Below, piece by piece: positions 16,440 through 29,999 of a DNA stretch of 64,000 nucleotides. How positions within the stretch are numbered: the stretch's first letter is position 1; each line of letters opens with the position of its first letter. This stretch comes from Roseomonas sp. KE0001 (GTDB lineage Bacteria; Pseudomonadota; Alphaproteobacteria; Acetobacterales; Acetobacteraceae). Made by a program: the position numbers and the translations under genes. The notes beneath the pieces were generated by a model. It had not been told where the DNA came from. It made no database searches and saw only the letters and a list, made by a program, of their open reading frames with translations. The stretch spans positions 186,001-250,000 of the forward strand of contig NZ_RCVQ01000006.1 of assembly GCF_016107285.1 (NCBI RefSeq). Reading direction: 5' to 3'.

Positions 16440-16465
16440 AACGCCGTGCTTCGGATCACGGTTTC
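16440..16465 (-). promoter_or_regulatory. candidate EcfG-type promoter for DUF1328 gene
   Basis: On the minus strand: GAAAC (16465-16461), 17-base spacer, CGTT (16443-16440). The known alphaproteobacterial general-stress consensus is GGAAC-N16/17-CGTT, so there is one mismatch. It overlaps the last bases of phyR and points at the DUF1328 start about 60 bases away. Confidence 0.45.
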
Positions 16466-17189
16466 AGCCGATGGGAACCGTCGCGGAAACCGCCTGGTAG
16501 GTCGCGATGGCAAGAGCCAGCGGCTCGAAAGGCTTGCTGATGACGAAGGCGGGCTCGACCTGCTCCGCCGTCAGCAGCCGCTCCGGATAGGCCGTGACGA
16601 AGACCACCGGCACCTTCAGCTCCTGCTGGATGCGGTTGACGGCGTTGATCCCGTCCCCGCCCATGCCGAGGTTCACGTCGGCCAGGATCAGCCCGGGGTG
16701 CCGCTCCTGCGCCAGCCGGACCGCCTGCGCCTCGCTGGCCGCGACGCCGATCACCCGGTGGCCGCAGGCCTCGACCAGCTGGCGCACATCCATGGCGATG
16801 ATCGGCTCGTCCTCGATCACCAGGATGTCGGTGGCGGCGGCGTCGCGCAGGGATTGCCGCGCCTCCGACAGCTCGGTCTCCGCCACGTCCAGCGGCACGC
16901 CGACGACGCGGGCGGCCTCCTGGGCGGTCAGCTCCTCCAGCGCGGTCAACAGCAGGAGCTGCCGGTGCCGCAGAGTGAGGCTGCCGCCCGCCGCGCCTTC
17001 CCGCACGGGCGTCATCTGCGTCACGCCGGCGTACAGCGACAGCCGAGGGGGAAGGTCCGGCGGCAGGCCCTCGCGCAGGGCGCTGGCGACCAGCGCATCG
17101 CCCTCCGCCTGGCTGCCGGTCAGGGCGCGGGCATAGCGCCGCGCGGGGGGCAGGGCCCGCAGAAGCTCGGCGTGGTGTGCGGCGTTCAT
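16464..17189 (-). CDS. phyR: PhyR anti-anti-sigma response regulator
   Basis: A 241-residue protein with the diagnostic PhyR order: an N-terminal sigma-factor-like domain (about 1-115) and a C-terminal receiver domain (about 121-235). Receiver residues visible: Glu126/Asp127 in IEDEP, phospho-acceptor Asp171 in LILADVNLG, Thr199 in VTAYPE, Lys219 in SKPFEP. When phosphorylated, PhyR binds NepR through the sigma-like domain and frees EcfG. It is divergent from the first EcfG-type gene (53 bp gap), with nepR and a candidate kinase 1.5-3.5 kb away. I see no EcfG-type promoter in the divergent gap. Confidence 0.95.
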   Translation of the reverse strand: MNAAHHAELLRALPPARRYARALTGSQAEGDALVASALREGLPPDLPPRLSLYAGVTQMTPVREGAAGGSLTLRHRQLLLLTALEELTAQEAARVVGVPLDVAETELSEARQSLRDAAATDILVIEDEPIIAMDVRQLVEACGHRVIGVAASEAQAVRLAQERHPGLILADVNLGMGGDGINAVNRIQQELKVPVVFVTAYPERLLTAEQVEPAFVISKPFEPLALAIATYQAVSATVPIG

Positions 17190-17242
17190 ATCGTGGCCCT
17201 CGTATCGGTCCTAAGCTGCAGCAGAACTTTGAACAGGAAAGA

Positions 17243-17761
17243 ATGTCCAATCAAACAGACCCGATCCGGACGCGGCTTCCCGCCGTGTTGCCGGATCTGA
17301 GGGCCTTTGCCCGCTTCCTGGCGCGCGACGCCTTCCTGGCCGACGATCTGGTCCAGGAAGCCGTGTTGCGCGGATTGCGGTCCGAAACGCAATGGGATCC
17401 TGCAACCAGCCTGCGGGCCTGGATGTTCCGGATTCTGCGCAATGTCTTCCTGGAGCAGGCGCGTCGGCGGGGCACGGAGAAGCGGGTGCTGGAGCAGTTG
17501 CCGGAACCGGGCCAGGCGCCTCCCGGTCAGGAGATGCATGGTGAGATGTCGGATCTGGCGCGCGCTCTGCAAGGGCTGCCGCTGCCCCAGCGCGAGGCGC
17601 TGATCCTGGTCGGCGCGCATGGCCTCTCTCACGAGGAGGCGGCCGCGGTCTGCGGGGTGCCGGTGGGCACGGTCAAGGCCAGGGTGTCGCGTGCGCGACT
17701 GGCGCTTGCGCGGCGGTTCCAGTCCGCGCCGGCCGCCGGAGAAGGGTCCGTGGAGGATTGA
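17243..17761 (+). CDS. ecfG: EcfG-type ECF sigma factor (first copy)
   Basis: A 172-residue ECF sigma factor with region 2 (DDLVQEAVLRGLR, then SLRAWMFRILRNVFLEQARRR) and region 4 (LPLPQREALILVGAHGLSHEEAAAVCGVPVGTVKARVSRAR, read as two segments around the HTH). Location beside phyR and similarity to the EcfG/sigma-EcfG family indicate a general stress sigma factor. ATG 17243 has AGGAAAGA just upstream. A second paralogue lies 211 bp downstream. The two share the WMFRILRN and HEEAAAV/YEEAAAV elements but differ widely elsewhere, so they are not a recent duplication. Confidence 0.88.
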   Translation: MSNQTDPIRTRLPAVLPDLRAFARFLARDAFLADDLVQEAVLRGLRSETQWDPATSLRAWMFRILRNVFLEQARRRGTEKRVLEQLPEPGQAPPGQEMHGEMSDLARALQGLPLPQREALILVGAHGLSHEEAAAVCGVPVGTVKARVSRARLALARRFQSAPAAGEGSVED

Positions 17762-17877
17762 TGCGGAAAGGCGCCGGGCCGGGCGATGCCGGATCGGTGG
17801 GCCGATGAGGCGGAAGTGGGGCGTGGCAGGCATGGATTGCCGCGACAAGCGCGCACCGGCCAAAAGGTTTCCGGAAG

Positions 17878-17902
17878 AAAACGCATGCCTGATATGCGTT
17901 TT
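17878..17902. terminator. 9-bp inverted repeat with T-run between the two sigma genes
   Basis: Perfect arms at 17878-17886 and 17894-17902 (AAAACGCAT and its complement) around a 7-base loop, ending in TTTTT (17899-17903). It can act as a terminator for the first sigma gene; because the outer arms are A/T pairs it could also be an operator just upstream of the second sigma gene's promoter. Confidence 0.5.
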
Positions 17903-17913
17903 TCGGCCATGTC

Positions 17914-17939
17914 GGAAGCAACCCTCTCCTTCGGCCGTT
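17914..17939 (+). promoter_or_regulatory. candidate EcfG-type promoter for second sigma gene/nepR/kinase
   Basis: GGAAG (17914-17918), 17-base spacer, CGTT (17936-17939): one mismatch to GGAAC-N16/17-CGTT. The CGTT is 33 bases before the ATG at 17973. It would make the sigma-nepR-kinase operon autoregulated. Confidence 0.55.
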
Positions 17940-17972
17940 CATTGGTGGGTCATGCAAGGCGAGAAGACAATC

Positions 17973-18617
17973 ATGACCCATGAGATGGCCACCCTCGAAG
18001 CCGATCGCACCTCCGCCACCGCGACGGCGAGCTTTCATGACCAGCTCGTGGCCATCCTGCCGCGTCTGCGGGTGCAGGCCGTCTCCATGACCCGCAACCG
18101 GGCCGATGCCGACGATCTGGTCCAGGCGGCGGTCAGCAACGCCCTGGCCGCGCAGGCGAGCTTCACCCCTGGCACGAATTTCGGCGCCTGGATGTTCCGC
18201 ATCCTGCGCAACCGCTTCCTCTCCGACATCCGCCGCAAGCGCGACACCTGCGACATGGACAGCGCCCCGGCGGAGGCGCTGGCCCGGCCGGCGGCCCAGG
18301 AGGACAGCCTGGCGCTCCGCGAACTGCGCCGCCGCCTGGCGGATCTGCCCGCGGATCACCGCACCGCCCTGCTGCTGGTGACGGTGCAGGGCATGTCCTA
18401 CGAGGAGGCCGCCGCGGTGATGGAATGCGCGGTCGGCACCGCCAAGTGCCGCGTCTTCCGGGCCCGGCGTCAGCTCGAGGCCTGGCTGACCGGCGAGCCG
18501 CAGGTCGCGCGCCGCAAGGCGGCACCGGCCGAGGCTGGCGAGACGCGCCGCCGGGATGCTAGCCTTCGCACCGCCGGCCGTGCAACCGGAACGCAGGCCC
18601 TGCATTTGGGAAGCTGA
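17973..18617 (+). CDS. ecfG: EcfG-type ECF sigma factor (second copy)
   Basis: A 214-residue ECF sigma factor: region 2 with MTRNRADADDLVQAAVSNAL and FGAWMFRILRNRFLSDIRRKR, region 4 with LPADHRTALLLVTVQGMSYEEAAAVMECAVGTAKCRVFRAR, and a basic C-terminal tail. ATG 17973 has GAGAAG six bases upstream; ATG 17952 is possible but lacks a clear Shine-Dalgarno. Its TGA overlaps the nepR ATG (TGATG), the classical ecfG-nepR coupling seen here in the order sigma then anti-sigma. A candidate EcfG promoter precedes it. Confidence 0.9.
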   Translation: MTHEMATLEADRTSATATASFHDQLVAILPRLRVQAVSMTRNRADADDLVQAAVSNALAAQASFTPGTNFGAWMFRILRNRFLSDIRRKRDTCDMDSAPAEALARPAAQEDSLALRELRRRLADLPADHRTALLLVTVQGMSYEEAAAVMECAVGTAKCRVFRARRQLEAWLTGEPQVARRKAAPAEAGETRRRDASLRTAGRATGTQALHLGS

Positions 18618-18835
18618 TGGATCAGAGAGCGGACAAGCGTGTTTTGGCGGAGCCCGGGAAATCATCGCAGCGCCCGTCCGGCGGGCGTGCGCGCAAGGGC
18701 ACGCCGGATGCGGCGTTCGACATCTGGCTACAGCGGGGGCTCCACGCCATGTTCGACGGCGTGGCTAAGGAGCCCATCCCTGAGGAACTGCTTCGGTTGA
18801 TCGAGGACGATCGGACGGGGAAGAAAACGACGTGA
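18617..18835 (+). CDS. nepR: NepR anti-sigma factor
   Basis: A 72-residue protein. The core FDIWLQRGLHAMFDGVAKEP (about 36-55) followed by IPEELLRLIEDD corresponds to the two helices by which NepR holds EcfG or, under stress, phospho-PhyR. The flanks are charged and probably disordered, as usual. It overlaps the second sigma gene by one base and the downstream kinase by four (GTGA), so the three form one translationally coupled unit: sigma, its inhibitor, and a sensor that can activate PhyR. Confidence 0.93.
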   Translation: MDQRADKRVLAEPGKSSQRPSGGRARKGTPDAAFDIWLQRGLHAMFDGVAKEPIPEELLRLIEDDRTGKKTT

Positions 18836-20622
18836 GTTCTTCGGCGCCCCCGAAAGGGTGGGCGCTGCACCGATTGCTCCGCGGCGTCCGCGGACCAATG
18901 CTGCTGCTGCTCATGGTCGCTAGCGTGCCTGTCATCGGCATCGCTGGCGCCAATGCCGTTCTGAGCTACGAAGCGGAACTGGCAGCGGGCCGGCGCAACG
19001 CCACGATCCTGGTCGATATCGCGGCGGCCCGGCACGGCTCCACCATCGCGAGCCTGCGCCAGACGCTGCAGGGCATCGCCACCGACACGCGCCTGCTGCG
19101 CGACACGGCGGAAAGCTGCAGCACGCTTCTCTCCACCTTCAGCGCCGCCAATCCGGGCCGCTACTCCAACATCTGGGTCATGGACCGCGACGGGCAGACC
19201 CGGTGCAGCAGCATCGCGCTCCTGACCACGCCCCAGAAGGATTCCGCGACAGCGCACCGCGCCATGATGGGTCGGGACTTTATTCTCGGTCCTTTCCAGC
19301 AGGGCGCCGTCACCGGCCGCCCCGTCATCATCGGCGCGGTGCCCATCCTTGCCGAGGGCGAGGCGCAGGGGGTCATCGCCGCCGGCCTGCTGCTCGAGTA
19401 TTTCGTTCGCAGCGAAGGCCGGGACCAGGGTCGCCAGGGGCAGCGCATCTGGCTCGTCGACGCGGAGGGCAGCGCGCTGCCGCTGACCCAGGCGGGCGCG
19501 ATCGAACTGCCGGAACCCGGGATGCTCCGGCAATTGCAGGACGCCTCGGGCATCGCCGCGCTGGAGGCGCGCTCCCAGGCCGGGGCGGACTACGCCTATG
19601 CCAGCGCCCGTCTCGCGCCGGGGCTGAGCGTGCTGGTCGGCCTGCCGATCGGCGAGATCCGCAGCACCGCCATGGCGGTGCTGCTGCGGCGGGTGGCCGA
19701 GCTGGCGGCCTTCCTGCTGGCCTGCCTCGTGGTCATCGTCGTCGGCGCCGACATCGCCATCGCCCGGCCGCTGCGGCGCCTGGCGGCGCGGGTGCGCGGC
19801 TGGCAGCCCGGGGCGCCCTTCGGCCGCGCCGCCCAGCGTGGCGAGCCGGAGGAGGTGCAGGCGCTGGAGCAGGCCTTCGATGATGCCGCCCGCGCCATCG
19901 CGGGGCGCGAGGAGGAGTTGCAGGCCGCGCTGCGCCAGCGGGACCTGTTGATGGCCGAGATCCATCACCGGGTGAAGAACAACCTGCAGATCGTCGCCTC
20001 GCTGCTGAACCTGCAGGCCGGCCGCCTGCGCGATCCGCGCGCCCGGGCGGAGTTCGCCACCGCGCGCGACCGTGTCCAGGCGCTGGCGACGCTGCACCGC
20101 CATCTCTACACCAACCGCACCTTCGAGGTCATCGCGCTCCGCCCCTTCCTCGAGGAACTGGGGCATCAGCTCTTCGCCGCCATGGGCGAACGGCCGGGGC
20201 AGCGGATCAAGCTGGCGGTGGAGGCGGACGAGCTGGAGATCCTCACCGACCAGGCCGTCTCCCTCGCCCTGCTGATCACCGAGACCGTGACCAACGCCAT
20301 CAAGCACGGCTTCCCGGACGCGCGCAGCGGCACCGTGACCATCGCCGTGCATGCCGAGGGGGACGAGGTGACGCTGACCGTGCGGGATGACGGGCTGGGC
20401 CTGCGCCTGGAGGACAATGCGCAGGACCGGGGTATCGGCCTGACGCTGATCCGCGGCTTCGCCCAGCATCTCGGCGGCGAGGTCGAGATCCGGCAGGCGG
20501 GGGGCACCGAGCTTCGCCTGCGCTTCACCCTGCGGCGCCGCGAGGCCGAGCCCGAGCCGCCGCTCCGCAGGGAAAGGGCCGAGGGGGGGAACGAGCAGGT
20601 GGCGGCGCAACCAGAAGCTTGA
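18832..20622 (+). CDS. membrane sensor histidine kinase, HisKA_2 type (probable PhyR kinase)
   Basis: A 596-residue kinase: membrane helix about 20-44, extracytoplasmic sensor of about 240 residues (Cache-like by length and pattern, not certain), membrane helix about 283-305, HAMP-like linker, HisKA_2 dimerisation domain with EIHHRVKNNLQIVASLLNLQ (phospho-His at 378), and an HATPase domain with ETVTNAIKHGF, DDGLG and GIGLTLI. HisKA_2 kinases are the family that phosphorylates PhyR. The GTG start overlaps nepR. This context makes it the likely stress input for the PhyR-NepR-EcfG switch. The signal it senses is unknown. Confidence 0.88.
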   Translation: MSSSAPPKGWALHRLLRGVRGPMLLLLMVASVPVIGIAGANAVLSYEAELAAGRRNATILVDIAAARHGSTIASLRQTLQGIATDTRLLRDTAESCSTLLSTFSAANPGRYSNIWVMDRDGQTRCSSIALLTTPQKDSATAHRAMMGRDFILGPFQQGAVTGRPVIIGAVPILAEGEAQGVIAAGLLLEYFVRSEGRDQGRQGQRIWLVDAEGSALPLTQAGAIELPEPGMLRQLQDASGIAALEARSQAGADYAYASARLAPGLSVLVGLPIGEIRSTAMAVLLRRVAELAAFLLACLVVIVVGADIAIARPLRRLAARVRGWQPGAPFGRAAQRGEPEEVQALEQAFDDAARAIAGREEELQAALRQRDLLMAEIHHRVKNNLQIVASLLNLQAGRLRDPRARAEFATARDRVQALATLHRHLYTNRTFEVIALRPFLEELGHQLFAAMGERPGQRIKLAVEADELEILTDQAVSLALLITETVTNAIKHGFPDARSGTVTIAVHAEGDEVTLTVRDDGLGLRLEDNAQDRGIGLTLIRGFAQHLGGEVEIRQAGGTELRLRFTLRRREAEPEPPLRRERAEGGNEQVAAQPEA

Positions 20623-20631
20623 GCGTGCGTT
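20607..20631 (+). promoter_or_regulatory. candidate EcfG-type promoter for small lipoprotein gene
   Basis: GCAAC (20607-20611), 16-base spacer, CGTT (20628-20631), one mismatch to the general-stress consensus. It overlaps the end of the kinase gene and lies 32 bases before the ATG at 20664. Confidence 0.45.
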
Positions 20632-20890: not shown

Positions 20891-20916
20891 GCAACTGGTC
20901 GCCCGGAGGTCACGTT
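20891..20916 (+). promoter_or_regulatory. candidate EcfG-type promoter for DUF883 gene
   Basis: GCAAC (20891-20895), 17-base spacer, CGTT (20913-20916); one mismatch. The CGTT is 40 bases before the ATG at 20957. Confidence 0.45.
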
Positions 20917-24935: not shown

Positions 24936-26831
24936 ATGCCCGACGCGCAGGATGCCGGCTATCAGGCCCTTTACGAGGCCTGGCGGGCCGATCCGGAAGG
25001 ATACTGGGCGGCCGCGGCGCGCGGCATCGACTGGGAGGTGCCGCCGGAGCGCATCTTCGATGCCGGCCAGGGGCCCTATGGCCGCTGGTTCCCCGATGCG
25101 CGGCTGAACATCTGCCACAACGCCCTCGACCGCCACGTCGCCGAGGGGCGTGGCGCGCAGGCCGCGCTGATCTGGGACAGCCCGGTGACGGGAGGCCAGG
25201 CGCGGTTGAGCTATGCCGAGCTGCTGGACCGCACGGCGCGGCTGGCCGGCGCCCTGGCCTCGCGCGGTGTCGGCCGGGGGGACCGCGTGGTCCTCTACAT
25301 GCCGATGGTGCCGGAGGCGGTGGTCGCCATGCTGGCCTGCGCCCGCCTCGGCGCGGTGCACTCCGTGGTCTTCGGCGGTTTCGCGGCGGCGGAGCTGGCG
25401 GCGCGCATCGCCGATGCCGAGCCCAGGGCCGTCATCGCCGCCTCCTGCGGGATCGAGCCCGGGCGGCTGGTGAAGTACAAGCCGCTGCTGGACGCCGCCC
25501 TGGCCATGTCGCCGCACCGGCCGGCCTGTTGCCTGATCCTGCGGCGCGAGGCCTGGCCCGGCGCGCTGGAGCCGGGGCGCGACGAGGATCTGCTGGAGGC
25601 CATGGCGGCCGCGGCACCGCACCCCTGCGTCAGCGTCGCCGCCACCGACCCGCTCTACATCCTCTACACCAGCGGCACGACGGGAAAGCCCAAGGGCGTG
25701 CTGCGCGACTGCGGCGGCTATGCCGTGGCGCTGCACAATTCGATGGCGATGCTCTACGGCCTGAAGGCGGGAGATGTCTCCTGGACCGCCAGCGACGTGG
25801 GCTGGGTGGTCGGGCATTCCTACATCGTCTATGGGCCGCTGCTCGCCGGCTGCACCTCCGTCGTCTATGAGGGCAAGCCGGTCGGCACGCCGGATGCCGG
25901 CGCCTTCTGGCGGGTCTGCGCCGAGCATGGCGTGAAGGTGCTGTTCACCGCGCCGACCGCCTTGCGCGCCATCAAGAAGGAAGACCCCGAGGGCCGTCTG
26001 CTCGGCCGCCACGACCTGTCGCGGCTGGAGGCGCTGTTCCTGGCCGGCGAGCGCTGCGACCCGGACACGGCGGTCTGGGCCGCGCGGCTGCTGGGCCGCC
26101 CGGTGATCGACCACTGGTGGCAGACGGAGACGGGCTGGTGCATCACCGGCAACTTCCGCGGCGCCGGCCTCTTCCCGATGCGGCCGGGCTCCGGCGGCAA
26201 GCCGGCGCCCGGCTATACGCTGGTGTCGCTCGACGAGGCCGGCCAGCCGGTCGCGCCGGGACAGATCGGCACCCTCGCCCTGCGCCTGCCCCTGCCGCCC
26301 GGCTGCGCGCCCAGCCTCTACCGCGCCGATGCGCGCTTCCGCGAGGCCTATCTCGACGCCTTCCCGGGCCACTACAACACCAGCGATGCCGGCATGCTCG
26401 ACGAGGACGGCTATGTCTGGGTGATGTCGCGCACCGATGACATCATCAACGTCGCCGGCCACCGGCTCTCGACGGGCGCCATCGAGGAGGTCCTGGCTTC
26501 CCATCCGGATGTCGCGGAATGCGCGGTGGTGGGGGCGCGGGATGCGTTGAAGGGTCAGGTGCCGCTGGGTCTCGTCGTGCTGAAGTCCGGCGCGACGCGG
26601 GCGGAGGCGGAGGTCGCGGCCGAGCTGATCGCCCTTGTGCGGGAGCGCATCGGGCCGGTCGCCGCCTTCCGCGAGGCGCGGGTGGTGGAGCGCCTGCCGA
26701 AGACGCGCAGCGGCAAGATCCTGCGCGCCACGCTGCGCAAACTGGCCGATGGCGAGGATGTCGCCGTGCCGCCCACCATCGACGATCCGCTCATCCTGGA
26801 GGAGATCGGCGCGGTGCTGCGGCGCCCTTAG
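24936..26831 (+). CDS. prpE: propionate-CoA ligase
   Basis: A 631-residue adenylate-forming enzyme that activates propionate to propionyl-CoA in the cytoplasm. Seen: N-terminal YEAWRADPEGYWAAAA typical of acetyl/propionyl-CoA synthetases, P-loop TSGTTGKPKG near 244, WWQTETGW, the YxTSDAG hinge-side motif, and the catalytic Lys in RSGKILR near 594. The IDWEVPPERIFD and DCGGYAVAL segments favour PrpE over acetyl-CoA synthetase. AGGGAGGG precedes the ATG. No prpBCD genes are in the window. Confidence 0.92.
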   Translation: MPDAQDAGYQALYEAWRADPEGYWAAAARGIDWEVPPERIFDAGQGPYGRWFPDARLNICHNALDRHVAEGRGAQAALIWDSPVTGGQARLSYAELLDRTARLAGALASRGVGRGDRVVLYMPMVPEAVVAMLACARLGAVHSVVFGGFAAAELAARIADAEPRAVIAASCGIEPGRLVKYKPLLDAALAMSPHRPACCLILRREAWPGALEPGRDEDLLEAMAAAAPHPCVSVAATDPLYILYTSGTTGKPKGVLRDCGGYAVALHNSMAMLYGLKAGDVSWTASDVGWVVGHSYIVYGPLLAGCTSVVYEGKPVGTPDAGAFWRVCAEHGVKVLFTAPTALRAIKKEDPEGRLLGRHDLSRLEALFLAGERCDPDTAVWAARLLGRPVIDHWWQTETGWCITGNFRGAGLFPMRPGSGGKPAPGYTLVSLDEAGQPVAPGQIGTLALRLPLPPGCAPSLYRADARFREAYLDAFPGHYNTSDAGMLDEDGYVWVMSRTDDIINVAGHRLSTGAIEEVLASHPDVAECAVVGARDALKGQVPLGLVVLKSGATRAEAEVAAELIALVRERIGPVAAFREARVVERLPKTRSGKILRATLRKLADGEDVAVPPTIDDPLILEEIGAVLRRP

Positions 26832-26853
26832 AGGCATGACGCGCCAGGGCGGC

Positions 26854-26878
26854 GCCGGCCCCGCGGGAGGGGGCCGGC
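26854..26878. terminator. hairpin between convergent prpE and lipoprotein gene
   Basis: Perfect nine-base stem (26854-26862 with 26870-26878), seven-base loop, midway in the 54-bp gap between convergent genes. No T-run on either strand; probable bidirectional terminator. Confidence 0.45.
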
Positions 26879-26885
26879 GGCCGGA

Positions 26886-27236
26886 TCAGCGGCGCAACTC
26901 GTTCGTCGGATAGGCGCCCGAGGTGTTCGACTGCGTCGCGCGGTCATAGGTGCGGGTCGCCGCCGTGCCCGGCGGGTTGCCCGGCATGCCGTCGGACTGG
27001 GTCGGATAGGCACCGGAGGTGTTGGTGCCGGCGGCGCGGTCGAGCGCGCGGGTGGCCTCGGTGCCGGAGGGATTGGCGCGGGTGCCGTCGGACTGGCTCG
27101 GATAGGCGCCCGAGGTGTTGGTCCCGACGTTGCGGTCGATGGCCCGGGTCGCCTGGTTGTTGGTGGAATCGCAGGCCGCCAGACCCAGCAGGGCGGCGGA
27201 AACCACGACGGCAGACAGAATCTCGCGGTGGCGCAT
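26886..27236 (-). CDS. repeat lipoprotein, probable general-stress gene
   Basis: A 116-residue protein with a signal peptide ending in LAAC, so Cys22 should be lipidated. The mature part is a 32-residue unit repeated about 2.7 times: ATRAxDR, then TNTSGAYPxQSDG, ending NPxGT. It is rich in Thr, Ser, Gly and Asn, likely unfolded in the periplasm. ATG 27236 has AGGAG nine bases upstream; a TTG three codons earlier is less likely. A perfect EcfG-type promoter (27290-27314) lies 53 bases upstream. Function unknown. Confidence 0.85.
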   Translation of the reverse strand: MRHREILSAVVVSAALLGLAACDSTNNQATRAIDRNVGTNTSGAYPSQSDGTRANPSGTEATRALDRAAGTNTSGAYPTQSDGMPGNPPGTAATRTYDRATQSNTSGAYPTNELRR

Positions 27237-27289
27237 CGTCCTCAACTCCTCTTCTCGGGATCCGGGCCGCTTGGCCGGTCCGCCGGTGC

Positions 27290-27314
27290 AACGCGAACGG
27301 GCGCCTCCGGTTCC
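27290..27314 (-). promoter_or_regulatory. perfect EcfG-type promoter for repeat lipoprotein
   Basis: Minus strand: GGAAC (27314-27310), 16-base spacer, CGTT (27293-27290), identical to the published alphaproteobacterial general-stress consensus GGAAC-N16/17-CGTT. It ends 53 bases before the ATG at 27236. Confidence 0.75.
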
Positions 27315-27388
27315 ACGGGAATTTCACGCGAGCCGGAGGAAGACCCCCGGGGGAAGGTGAGCCCGGATCGACAACCTGGAGTGTTGCG

Positions 27389-27414
27389 GCAACCGCCGGC
27401 CCGGTGGCGACGTT
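27389..27414 (+). promoter_or_regulatory. candidate EcfG-type promoter upstream of 25-residue membrane peptide
   Basis: GCAAC (27389-27393), 17-base spacer, CGTT (27411-27414), one mismatch. The distance to the ATG at 27530 is 115 bases, longer than for the other candidates, so the assignment is weaker. Confidence 0.35.
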
Positions 27415-27529
27415 GGCGTTTCGTGGGCGGGCCGGAGGGTCGCCGCCCTGTGCCGGCCTTCAAGGCGGGCTGGCCTAATGACCAAAGCCGGCGCGCCTGG
27501 GGCCGCCGCGGCAAGGAAGGAGAGCATGG

Positions 27530-27607
27530 ATGAAGTCGATTCTGCTGTGGTTCCTGGGGATCCCGATCCCGATCATCCTCCTCCTCTGGATCTTTGGCGT
27601 GCTCTAG
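27530..27607 (+). CDS. 25-residue membrane peptide
   Basis: A tiny gene: MKSILLWFLGIPIPIILLLW followed by IFGVL and TAG. It is one hydrophobic helix with an IPIPI kink. AAGGAG at 27517-27522 is seven bases before the ATG, an ideal ribosome site. Short peptides of this kind (Lys near the start, Leu-Leu-Trp, Ile-Pro-Ile-Pro-Ile) occur in related alphaproteobacteria as unnamed proteins. An overlapping ATG four bases upstream opens a different, non-membrane frame and is less likely. Possible stress-induced single-pass membrane peptide. Confidence 0.7.
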   Translation: MKSILLWFLGIPIPIILLLWIFGVL

Positions 27608-27684
27608 GCCGCGCACGAGCCCAGTCCCCCGATCGGTGCCGGCGGCATCGGTCGGGCTGACCCTTCCTCGCAGCCGTCCGGGCG

Positions 27685-28290
27685 CTAGCGCCGCGCGGCG
27701 CGGCGGCTTCGCCAGAGGTGCCAGAGATAGGCCCCGATGACGCCGGCCAGCACAACATAGCTGAGCGGCTCGATCGCCGTCTCGACCCGCTTGTACTGCT
27801 CGCGCAGCAGATACCCGGCCCCGGCGAGCAGGCTGACCCAGATCAGGCTTCCCACCAGCGTCCAGAGATAGAAGACCGGCCGCCGGATATGGGCGAGGCC
27901 AGCCGGGATCGAGATCAGGGTGCGGATGGCCGGCAGCATTCGGCCGAAGAAGAGCGCCACCGGGCCGTGGCGCCGCAGCGTGGCCTCCGCCTTGTCCATG
28001 TCCTCCGCCGAGACGCCGAACCACCGGCCATGGCGCGCCACCAGCGGCCGGATGCGCCGGCTGCCGATCGCATGGGCGATCTCGTACCAGAGGCCGTTAC
28101 CGACGAGCGAGCCCAGCGTGCCGGCCAGGATGGCGGTGACGATCGACATCTGCCCCTCGGCGGCGGCGAACCCCGCCAGGGGCATGATGAATTCCGAGGG
28201 GATGGGCGGGAACAGGTTCTCCAGGAACATCAGCAGGAAGACGCCCACCGGCCCGGCCTCGCCGACGGTCTGGGTGATCCACTCGATCAT
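27685..28290 (-). CDS. DedA family membrane protein
   Basis: A 201-residue polytopic protein of the DedA/VTT superfamily. ENLFPPIPSEFIMPLAG and the conserved FFGRMLPAIRTLISIPAG with its Arg residues are the family signatures. DedA proteins move lipids across the inner membrane; some act as undecaprenyl-phosphate translocases and affect polymyxin resistance and membrane-potential maintenance. Its ATG overlaps the stop of the upstream GT39-like gene by four bases (ATGA), so both are made together, which fits a shared polyprenyl-phosphate carrier. Confidence 0.92.
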   Translation of the reverse strand: MIEWITQTVGEAGPVGVFLLMFLENLFPPIPSEFIMPLAGFAAAEGQMSIVTAILAGTLGSLVGNGLWYEIAHAIGSRRIRPLVARHGRWFGVSAEDMDKAEATLRRHGPVALFFGRMLPAIRTLISIPAGLAHIRRPVFYLWTLVGSLIWVSLLAGAGYLLREQYKRVETAIEPLSYVVLAGVIGAYLWHLWRSRRAARR

Positions 28291-29999
28291 GGCGTGGCTC
28301 CGGAGGCGGGCGTCGGAAGGGAGGCGGTCGAGACCCGCTGGAAGAGATGCAGCCGCAGCCGCCGCCCGCGGGTATAGTTGTAGCCCTCCACGATGGCGGC
28401 CTCGCGCAGCGGGAGGTCCCGCGCCGCCACGGCGGCGCGGAAGGCGCCGAGGTCGCGGTCCCCCACCGCGACGCTGCGCCCGTCGCCCGCCGCCAGGAAG
28501 GCCGCCGCCGCCTCGCCGTTGCGCAGCAGGGCGGTGTCGGTGCCTGTGGCGAAGACCAGGGAGGGCTCATGGTATCCGACGATGCCGAACTCCCCCTGCA
28601 CCTCGCCCGAGGGCGCCGCCGCCGCCAGCGCCGCGGCGATGCGCGGCCCGATCCAGGGCGCCTGCAACCGCGGCAGCACCCCGCCGAGGATGGCGGCGTA
28701 GAGCGGCACCGAGAGCATCACCGCGGCCAGCATGGCGCGGGCCGGCGAGCCCGCCCGCCATTCCCGGCGCGCCACCCCGAGCAGGAGCAGGGCGAAGGGC
28801 AGGACCAGCAGCGCCACCGGATCGACGCGCCGGTCGGCCAGCCAGGGCAGCAGCCCGGCGGCGATGCCCAGGGCCAGTGCCACCAGGGCGAGCAGGGCGG
28901 CGCCGAGCCAGGAGAGCCAGCGCGGCGCCGGGCGCCGCAGCGGGTCCATCGCCCAGGCGGCGCCCAGCAGCATCAGCGCCGGGAAAACCGGCAGGGTGTA
29001 GTGCGGCAGCTTGGTCGCCACTGCCTCGAACATCAGCCAGGAAGGCGCGATCCAGGCCAGCAGGAAGCGCGTCGCCGGGTTCATGCGGTCCCGCCAGGCC
29101 GCCGGCAGGGCGCGCAGCACCAGGAAGGCGGCGGGGAAGCCGGTCAGCGCGAAGGTCAGCAGATAGTAGCCCGGCGGCCCGCCATGCGCCTCCTCGCCGG
29201 AGGAGACCTTGGAGAGCATGTCGCCGCCCAGCGCCTCGGTGAAGAACCGGCCCTCGGTGGCGATGCCGATGGCGATCATCCAGGGCGCCGCCAGGGCCAG
29301 CATCAGCGGGATGCCCCAGAGCGGCCGCAGCGCCCGCAGCCAGCCTCCGGCGCGGTCGGCGACGGCCAGGGTGAGGATGGCGAGCAGGGCGATGAGCGGC
29401 CCGATCGGCCCCTTGAGCAGGATGGCGATGCCGAGGGCCGCCCAGAGGCCCGCGGCCTGCCGCGCGGAGAAGACCTCCGGCGCCAGGTAGGCGCGGCCGA
29501 GCAGGCCCATCGCCACCGTCACCGCGCCGAGCAGGGCGGCGTCGGTCTTGGCGATATGCGTCTCCACCACCAGGACCATGCTGGCGGCCAGCATGGCGGC
29601 GCCGAGGAAGGCGGCACGCCGCCCGACCAGCGCCCGGCCCCAGTGGAAGGTCGCCAGCACCGCCACCCAGGCGCCGAGCAGGGAGGGAATCCGGTAGGGC
29701 CAGATCTCGCCGCGATGGCCCAGGCCCAGCGCCTCGGCGGCATGCACCGAGGCGGCCTGGGCCCAGTGGATGCCGACCGGCTTCTTGTTGCGCTCCTCCT
29801 CGCCGAAGCGGATGCGGACATAGTCGCCGCTGTCCACCATCTGCCGGCTGGCCTGGGCGAAGCGGCTTTCGTCGCGGTCGCCGGGCGGCAGGGCGGCGAG
29901 GCCGGGCAGCCACAGCGCCAGGCAGAGCAGGCTGAGCCAGAGGCGCGGCCGCCGCGTCTCGGGCAGCCGGTCGAGAAGGTCGCGCAGGGCAGGAAGCAT
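28287..29999 (-). CDS. GT39/ArnT-like polyprenyl-phosphate glycosyltransferase
   Basis: A 570-residue membrane enzyme with about 12 helices in the first 430 residues and a soluble periplasmic C-terminal domain. DRDESRFAQASRQM carries the catalytic acidic pair of the PMT/ArnT first loop; RNKKPVGIHWAQ is the second conserved loop. Such enzymes transfer a sugar (for ArnT, aminoarabinose) from an undecaprenyl-phosphate donor to an envelope acceptor such as lipid A. No arn genes are nearby, so the sugar is unknown. Coupled to dedA downstream. Confidence 0.88.
   Translation of the reverse strand: MLPALRDLLDRLPETRRPRLWLSLLCLALWLPGLAALPPGDRDESRFAQASRQMVDSGDYVRIRFGEEERNKKPVGIHWAQAASVHAAEALGLGHRGEIWPYRIPSLLGAWVAVLATFHWGRALVGRRAAFLGAAMLAASMVLVVETHIAKTDAALLGAVTVAMGLLGRAYLAPEVFSARQAAGLWAALGIAILLKGPIGPLIALLAILTLAVADRAGGWLRALRPLWGIPLMLALAAPWMIAIGIATEGRFFTEALGGDMLSKVSSGEEAHGGPPGYYLLTFALTGFPAAFLVLRALPAAWRDRMNPATRFLLAWIAPSWLMFEAVATKLPHYTLPVFPALMLLGAAWAMDPLRRPAPRWLSWLGAALLALVALALGIAAGLLPWLADRRVDPVALLVLPFALLLLGVARREWRAGSPARAMLAAVMLSVPLYAAILGGVLPRLQAPWIGPRIAAALAAAAPSGEVQGEFGIVGYHEPSLVFATGTDTALLRNGEAAAAFLAAGDGRSVAVGDRDLGAFRAAVAARDLPLREAAIVEGYNYTRGRRLRLHLFQRVSTASLPTPASGATP

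Follow-up and report, generated by a model that had tools for sequence, protein, structure and literature searches.

A conserved 25-codon gene for a putative one-helix membrane peptide behind an EcfG-type promoter motif in Roseomonas

Between a DedA-type gene and a small lipoprotein gene, both on the opposite strand, the genome of Roseomonas sp. KE0001 holds an open frame of only 25 codons, which raises the question of whether so short a frame is a gene and, if so, what its product might do. The frame lies in a stretch of 64,000 nucleotides (contig NZ_RCVQ01000006.1, positions 186,001 to 250,000), which is called the window here and was analysed as a whole. A preliminary description made from the letters alone had taken the frame for a small membrane-peptide gene of a kind that is often missed and often stress-related. 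The elements that it named are in place: AAGGAG stands seven bases (AGCATGG) ahead of an ATG, the 25 codons end in TAG, and the encoded peptide, MKSILLWFLGIPIPIILLLWIFGVL, reads as a single hydrophobic stretch with IPIPI mid-way, in agreement with the predicted helix and its kink. A second ATG at 27526, in another frame, follows AAGGAG after just 3 bases; conservation favours the start at ATG 27530. The coordinates of all features are collected in Table 1.

Finding 25 open codons behind a good ribosome site is in itself not improbable; it is conservation that raises this frame above chance. A protein search of 98 relatives at E <= 10 gave matches to the peptide in 47 of them. When a degenerate DNA pattern for LLWxxGxPIP was run over 84,980 named genomes, at least 117 stretches were found, 80 of which were made into loci; among the matches listed, these loci belong mostly to Alphaproteobacteria, with others in Pseudomonas, Achromobacter, Stenotrophomonas, Verrucomicrobia, and further groups, and a start codon lies no more than 36 nt upstream in 73 of the 80. 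The family can be written (M)RxILLWLLGxPIPIIILLxLF, and in an alignment of 81 of its sequences W7, G10, and P12 are invariant throughout. The profile made from this alignment matches 38 of the 98 relatives, 19 of 144 genomes in a class-wide sample, and 46 of 249 genomes in a phylum-wide sample, 14 of these 46 being outside the class. A decoy profile constructed from 41 of the 81 members in reversed order, equal to the true profile in length and composition, matched none of the 98 relatives, a zero-match decoy being unable to show its own power. The window peptide has W7, G10, and P12 and a stand-alone frame some 25 codons long, as is typical of the family, and its gene is present as a single copy in its own genome.

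The signature of translation is similarly conserved. A Shine-Dalgarno core, scored as GGAG, GAGG, or AGGA at -16 to -4, precedes the frame in 88 of 95 unique loci, compared with 8-10% in two controls, namely, 60 of 754 windows and 800 of 8397 other ATGs, and the frames of the 95 loci encode 20-28 aa, with 82 of them falling at 24-26. Across all pairs of the eight copies from the genus, the differences at codon positions 1, 2, and 3 number 101, 26, and 210, and 194 synonymous codon differences stand against 82 non-synonymous ones; since the homologues were picked by protein similarity, synonymous change is favoured here, a bias of which the Shine-Dalgarno and length results are free, and since related copies are not independent, these and the later counts of copies overstate the evidence. 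The checks proposed in the preliminary description (conservation of the frame in relatives, conservation of the upstream AAGGAG, and a bias toward synonymous substitution) all came out in its favour, and we regard it as established from these sequence comparisons that the frame is a real protein-coding gene rather than a chance frame. The peptide can nevertheless be lost, as one genus-mate (G006) keeps the lipoprotein-DedA block without it. Short T-rich tandem-like repeats occupy the peptide's place in that genome (L244:10094-10401).

Table 1. Features of the window around the peptide gene and the general-stress-response core (positions within the window)
Feature	Position	Strand	Basis and remarks
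PhyR anti-anti-sigma response regulator	16464..17189	-	NF006623, over its cut-off
ECF sigma factor 1	17243..17761	+	general ECF models only; EcfG-like by position
ECF sigma factor 2	17973..18617	+	general ECF models only; EcfG-like by position
NepR anti-sigma factor	18617..18835	+	23.3 bits, slightly below the Pfam cut-off (25.7); right operon
PhyK-like sensor kinase	18832..20622	+	NF051872 E 1.6e-68, below its cut-off; HisKA_2/HWE
GCAAC-N16-CGTT motif, 57 nt before a small lipoprotein ORF (ATG 20664)	20607..20631	+	motif search
GCAAC-N17-CGTT motif, 66 nt before a DUF883-type ORF (20957; region to 21229)	20891..20916	+	motif search
Divergent small lipoprotein gene	26886..27236 (ATG; ORF listing from TTG 27245)	-	ORF listing; synteny
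EcfG-type promoter GGAAC-N16-CGTT (consensus) of the lipoprotein gene	27290..27314	-	motif; aligned intergenic regions
Candidate EcfG-type promoter GCAAC-N17-CGTT of the peptide gene	27389..27414 (-141 from ATG)	+	motif; kept upstream in relatives
Shine-Dalgarno AAGGAG of the peptide gene	27517..27522	+	sequence; ATG 27530 after 7 bases
Peptide gene, 25 codons, MKSILLWFLGIPIPIILLLWIFGVL, stop TAG at 27605-27607	27530..27607	+	ORF reading, homologues, decoy control, codon bias
DedA/VTT-domain membrane protein, downstream neighbour of the peptide gene	27685..28290	-	PF09335 E 6.6e-19; synteny
Large membrane protein, presumably ArnT-like	28287..29999	-	ORF listing; synteny

How the gene might be controlled is suggested by its upstream region. 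It had been proposed that the peptide gene lies opposite a lipoprotein gene with a perfect promoter and has a candidate EcfG promoter of its own, and both motifs are found. The consensus promoter of the lipoprotein gene is the sole such match in the window (0.35 expected), and GGCAAC-N15-17-CGTT occurs there twice, compared with 0.07 expected. An alignment of nine intergenic regions shows the motif on the peptide side in eight and, on the lipoprotein side, the exact GGAAC motif in five. Of 78 alphaproteobacterial copies in the family at large, 34 have G[GC]AAC-N15-18-CGTT in the 150 nt upstream, against a shuffled expectation of 0.48; five altered patterns reach 2-5 of the 78, and the motif precedes 1 of 18 copies from other classes, the class of each copy having been assigned by hand. 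In its strict form, the motif is missing from 44 of the 78. The counts collapse copies with identical upstream sequence as duplicates and leave out the 7 of the 80 pattern loci that lack a start codon within 36 nt, as well as loci with less than 150 nt upstream. The upstream motifs have spacers of 16 or 17 nt throughout, although the search admitted 15-18, and sit at a median of -61; the motif of the window copy is farther out, at -141, which is a weak point.

In the genome of strain KE0001 itself, GCAAC-N16/17-CGTT has 52 matches compared with 15 for the backwards pattern. Some of the 30 sites inspected lie just before genes for CsbD, ferritin-like, DUF1328, DUF3309, and PRC-barrel proteins, while others lie before unrelated genes (for example, malonyl-CoA decarboxylase) or have no open frame behind them. 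Ferritin-like, DUF1328, DUF3309, and PRC-barrel genes are typical of general-stress regulons of this type. According to excerpts of the published work, csbD is a direct target of the EcfG regulon, GGAAC and GCAAC are the -35 boxes that such promoters most often have in Sphingopyxis (both PMC7083833), and GCAACC...CGTT sites are listed for stress genes (PMC6599016).

The window also contains a complete general-stress-response core at 16464-20622, composed of PhyR, two tandem ECF sigma genes, NepR, and a PhyK-like kinase, with the prerequisites of an EcfG regulon (PhyR, NepR, and a candidate EcfG-type sigma) all present. This core goes beyond what had been described before, as do the GCAAC form of the -35 box and the second branch with a larger membrane protein that is discussed below. 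In all seven fetched genus-mates that carry this copy, the peptide gene is divergent from the lipoprotein gene and located beside phyR, in the order membrane protein, DedA, peptide, lipoprotein, and PhyR. Beyond PhyR follow the two sigma genes, NepR, PhyK, a small lipoprotein, and DUF883, as far as the contigs extend; six of the seven reach nepR, L201 ending in PhyK and L202 in the first sigma gene. Unlike in these seven genomes, the block holding the peptide is shifted by about 9 kb from the PhyR cluster in the window. In a different genus (L211), peptide, lipoprotein, and PhyR share one contig, with the lipoprotein gene adjoining the peptide gene, and PhyR and/or sigma genes occur near the peptide in L211, L250, and L251. 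The distance between peptide and NepR amounts to 4.2 kb (G137) and 2.2 kb (G162) in two other families. Most other genus-mates for which the NepR region was fetched have no peptide block near phyR. The divergent lipoprotein itself contains a roughly 30-residue unit (TNTSGAYPxQSDG...) three times in imperfect form, and these repeats vary among relatives.

Peptide and NepR also tend to occur in the same genomes. In the class sample, a NepR match is found in 13 of 19 genomes with the peptide (and is absent from the other 6) versus 12 of 125 without it (Fisher p 8e-8, a value that ignores shared ancestry and genome size). Among the 98 relatives, the corresponding numbers are 32 of 38 and 18 of 60, equally uncorrected for shared ancestry and genome size. 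When the window's own family is counted at one genome per genus, the association is weak (19 of 23 versus 10 of 19, p 0.05). Together, promoter, synteny, and co-occurrence strongly support that the peptide gene would be under the control of an EcfG-type sigma factor, and the stress-related role anticipated for the peptide is borne out to this extent by the motif upstream and by the position beside the PhyR-NepR-EcfG cluster in genus-mates.

A second line of evidence comes from the neighbours of the family elsewhere. When the neighbours of the named loci were clustered, a single one recurred strongly, a membrane protein of about 310 aa, which accompanies the peptide in 34 of 103 loci (the named loci among the matches listed together with the relatives, L025 and L061 being one locus from two sources) and lies on the peptide's strand in 31 of them. 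Of 24 parsed cases, 23 have the partner gene on the same strand at a gap of -1 to 122 nt, and the peptide stands before or after the partner; 6 more cases outside the 24 are unparsed. A profile of the partner matches 40 of the 98 relatives at E <= 1e-8, and 15 of the 17 close partner homologues in these genomes (E below 1e-70) lie directly beside a peptide gene, with G026 and G072 as exceptions. The EcfG-type promoter precedes 1 of 18 partner-linked copies versus 33 of the 60 remaining ones (p 1e-4; partner-linked status was assigned by hand, and L021 and L095 were left out). The promoter split and the adjacency of the partner thus divide the family into a solo, stress-regulated branch, which includes the window copy, and a partner-linked branch.

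The partner itself matches no Pfam or NCBIfam family over the cut-off, and its homologues on rhizobial plasmids are annotated as hypothetical proteins. The partner family (L041:6312-7250 and homologues) has many invariant residues and is predicted to be mainly helical. Its predicted structure has a mean pLDDT of 74 and a pTM of 0.55, and a fold search against the PDB gave no match at E <= 0.001 and therefore no functional clue. The window copy has no adjacent same-strand partner gene, its neighbours being the DedA and lipoprotein genes, and its genome has no close partner; the only homologue is a diverged one at C4 (L219:1429-2376, E 2.7e-41), which apparently forms an operon with a CsbD gene and lies behind a GCAAC-N17-CGTT motif.

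With a probability of roughly 0.7, we read the window peptide as an effector of the general stress response, namely, a one-helix inner-membrane peptide with a larger membrane protein as its target. Upon stress, the PhyK-like kinase would be activated and PhyR would take up NepR, whereby the EcfG-type sigma factor would be set free to transcribe both divergent genes, with GCAAC-N17-CGTT serving the peptide and GGAAC-N16-CGTT the lipoprotein. Made from its strong ribosome site, the peptide would be inserted as a single helix whose N-terminus, given the Lys/Arg that adjoins Met, is predicted to stay inside; its putative contact face would consist of the P-x-P kink together with the invariant Trp and Gly. 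The helix would most likely bind a larger membrane protein and thereby tune or stabilise it. By analogy with the sister branch, which is built into operons with the ~310-aa protein, the diverged homologue behind the CsbD gene and the same kind of promoter is the best candidate partner. The partner of the window copy is the weakest step of this reading because several genomes (G031, G035, G048, G056, G062, G071, and G093) have the peptide without any partner homologue. A more tentative extension, which we consider possible and would not favour, is that the ~310-aa protein has its own dedicated regulator or subunit in this peptide family, which extends through Proteobacteria and further. Alphaproteobacteria would then have duplicated the peptide so that one branch came under the stress sigma factor beside phyR. 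If true, stress would add a regulatory helix to the ~310-aa membrane protein in trans.

Other readings of so small a hydrophobic peptide have to be weighed. In size and hydrophobicity it fits type I toxins, which harm or depolarise the membrane and are checked by an antisense RNA or tight regulation, and it may sit behind a stress promoter. Nonetheless, there is usually one peptide copy per genome, at conserved chromosomal places, the sequence is highly conserved over many families, and the sister branch has an operon partner protein; no Rfam family was matched in a scan of 26800-28000, and the peptide gave no match in PHROG models or, by tblastn, in plasmid records. A toxin is thus unlikely. 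Slightly less credit is given to a housekeeping role, in which the peptide would be a small structural subunit of some membrane complex and would have stress genes nearby by accident. KdpF, CydX, and CcoS are such single-helix subunits, encoded in operons as the peptides of the sister branch are. Neighbour clustering, however, brought up no respiratory or transport operon that recurs across genera beyond a shared Pseudomonas neighbourhood, and it is the window's branch that has the stress promoter and tends to co-occur with NepR. That the frame serves as a leader peptide, the translation of which regulates a downstream gene without a functional product, is very improbable: the frame is short and the sister-branch peptide often stands closely ahead of the ~310-aa gene, but the amino-acid sequence encoded by the frame is conserved at non-synonymous sites, the peptide at other loci comes after the partner gene, and in the window no gene stands downstream for it to regulate, the next one (DedA) running on the opposite strand. 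Short open frames preceded by ribosome sites occur often, and the ORF listing of the window has many short frames, but a chance frame in a GC-rich intergenic region is ruled out here by the homologues, the invariant residues, the codon bias, the Shine-Dalgarno core, and the reversed decoy.

The effector reading concerns a peptide that the family libraries do not hold. The window peptide matched no family among the Pfam, NCBIfam, and PHROG models, and the 81-member alignment gave only two weak and irrelevant PEF-CTERM matches in the same libraries (NCBIfam); a PDB profile search with the peptide family returned no covering family. The literature searches brought up no paper on EcfG or general-stress small membrane proteins, on alphaproteobacterial general-stress sORFs, on the PhyR general stress response in Acetobacteraceae, or on a PhnA-like protein with EcfG, and no paper matched substrings of the peptide, which carries little weight as such strings are rarely printed. 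The family thus appears to be new and unnamed, within a kind, the small stress-induced membrane peptides, that is already known. YohP of E. coli is a stress-induced single-helix small protein, and stress-induced small proteins of this species were reportedly described by Hemm et al. in 2010. Like the peptide, YohP-type proteins have about 25-30 residues and one hydrophobic helix, are linked to stress, and were missed by annotation; to our knowledge, they depend on a different sigma factor and have no PIP motif, the likeness being one of description rather than sequence.

Closer in taxonomy is SEP6 of S. meliloti, for which excerpts of PMC10117765 give fewer than 30 aa, a predicted membrane helix, support from Ribo-seq and Western blot, presence in the membrane-pellet fraction, and conservation in Hyphomicrobiales. 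Compared by description only, its size, helix, and taxonomic range would fit, and SEP6 may be a family member already seen by ribosome profiling; the excerpts of the small-protein papers on S. meliloti (PMC10117765) and B. japonicum (PMC5082802) established no tie to the family. The EcfG/PhyR-NepR regulon shares its promoter type and genomic neighbourhood with the peptide gene, and a 25-residue membrane peptide goes unmentioned for it in the excerpts of PMC7083833 and PMC6599016. DUF1328 and DUF3309 proteins are, like the peptide, small membrane proteins behind GCAAC-N16/17-CGTT in the same genome, but they measure 50-57 residues there, and the peptide has no Pfam match. The sister branch resembles KdpF and CydX in that a one-helix peptide is encoded beside a large membrane protein, and differs in that this protein is uncharacterised.

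The general-stress regulons of Alphaproteobacteria are measured on annotated genes, and transcriptome and mutant studies can therefore easily overlook a conserved target of 25 codons next to phyR. With a defined promoter, one helix, and an operon partner in the sister branch, the family offers a compact, testable case, and its profile, once placed in annotation libraries, would expose the peptide in many proteobacterial genomes at once. Two further kinds of tiny sequence were observed alongside it. A second membrane peptide family with good ribosome sites, MPILLWFLGVPGIIVxLLWVTGxIGF, is present in genus-mates (L023, L026, L027, and L030); this VPG variant was set aside, an EcfG-type motif being found in 0 of 4. 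A third variant, LLWLxGxPIPxLLLxFLxRGC(T/A), occurs in verrucomicrobial, deltaproteobacterial, and Rhodanobacter relatives (L048, L051, L056, L062, L067, and L091), where the sequences lack a close upstream start codon and are probably part of slightly longer proteins.
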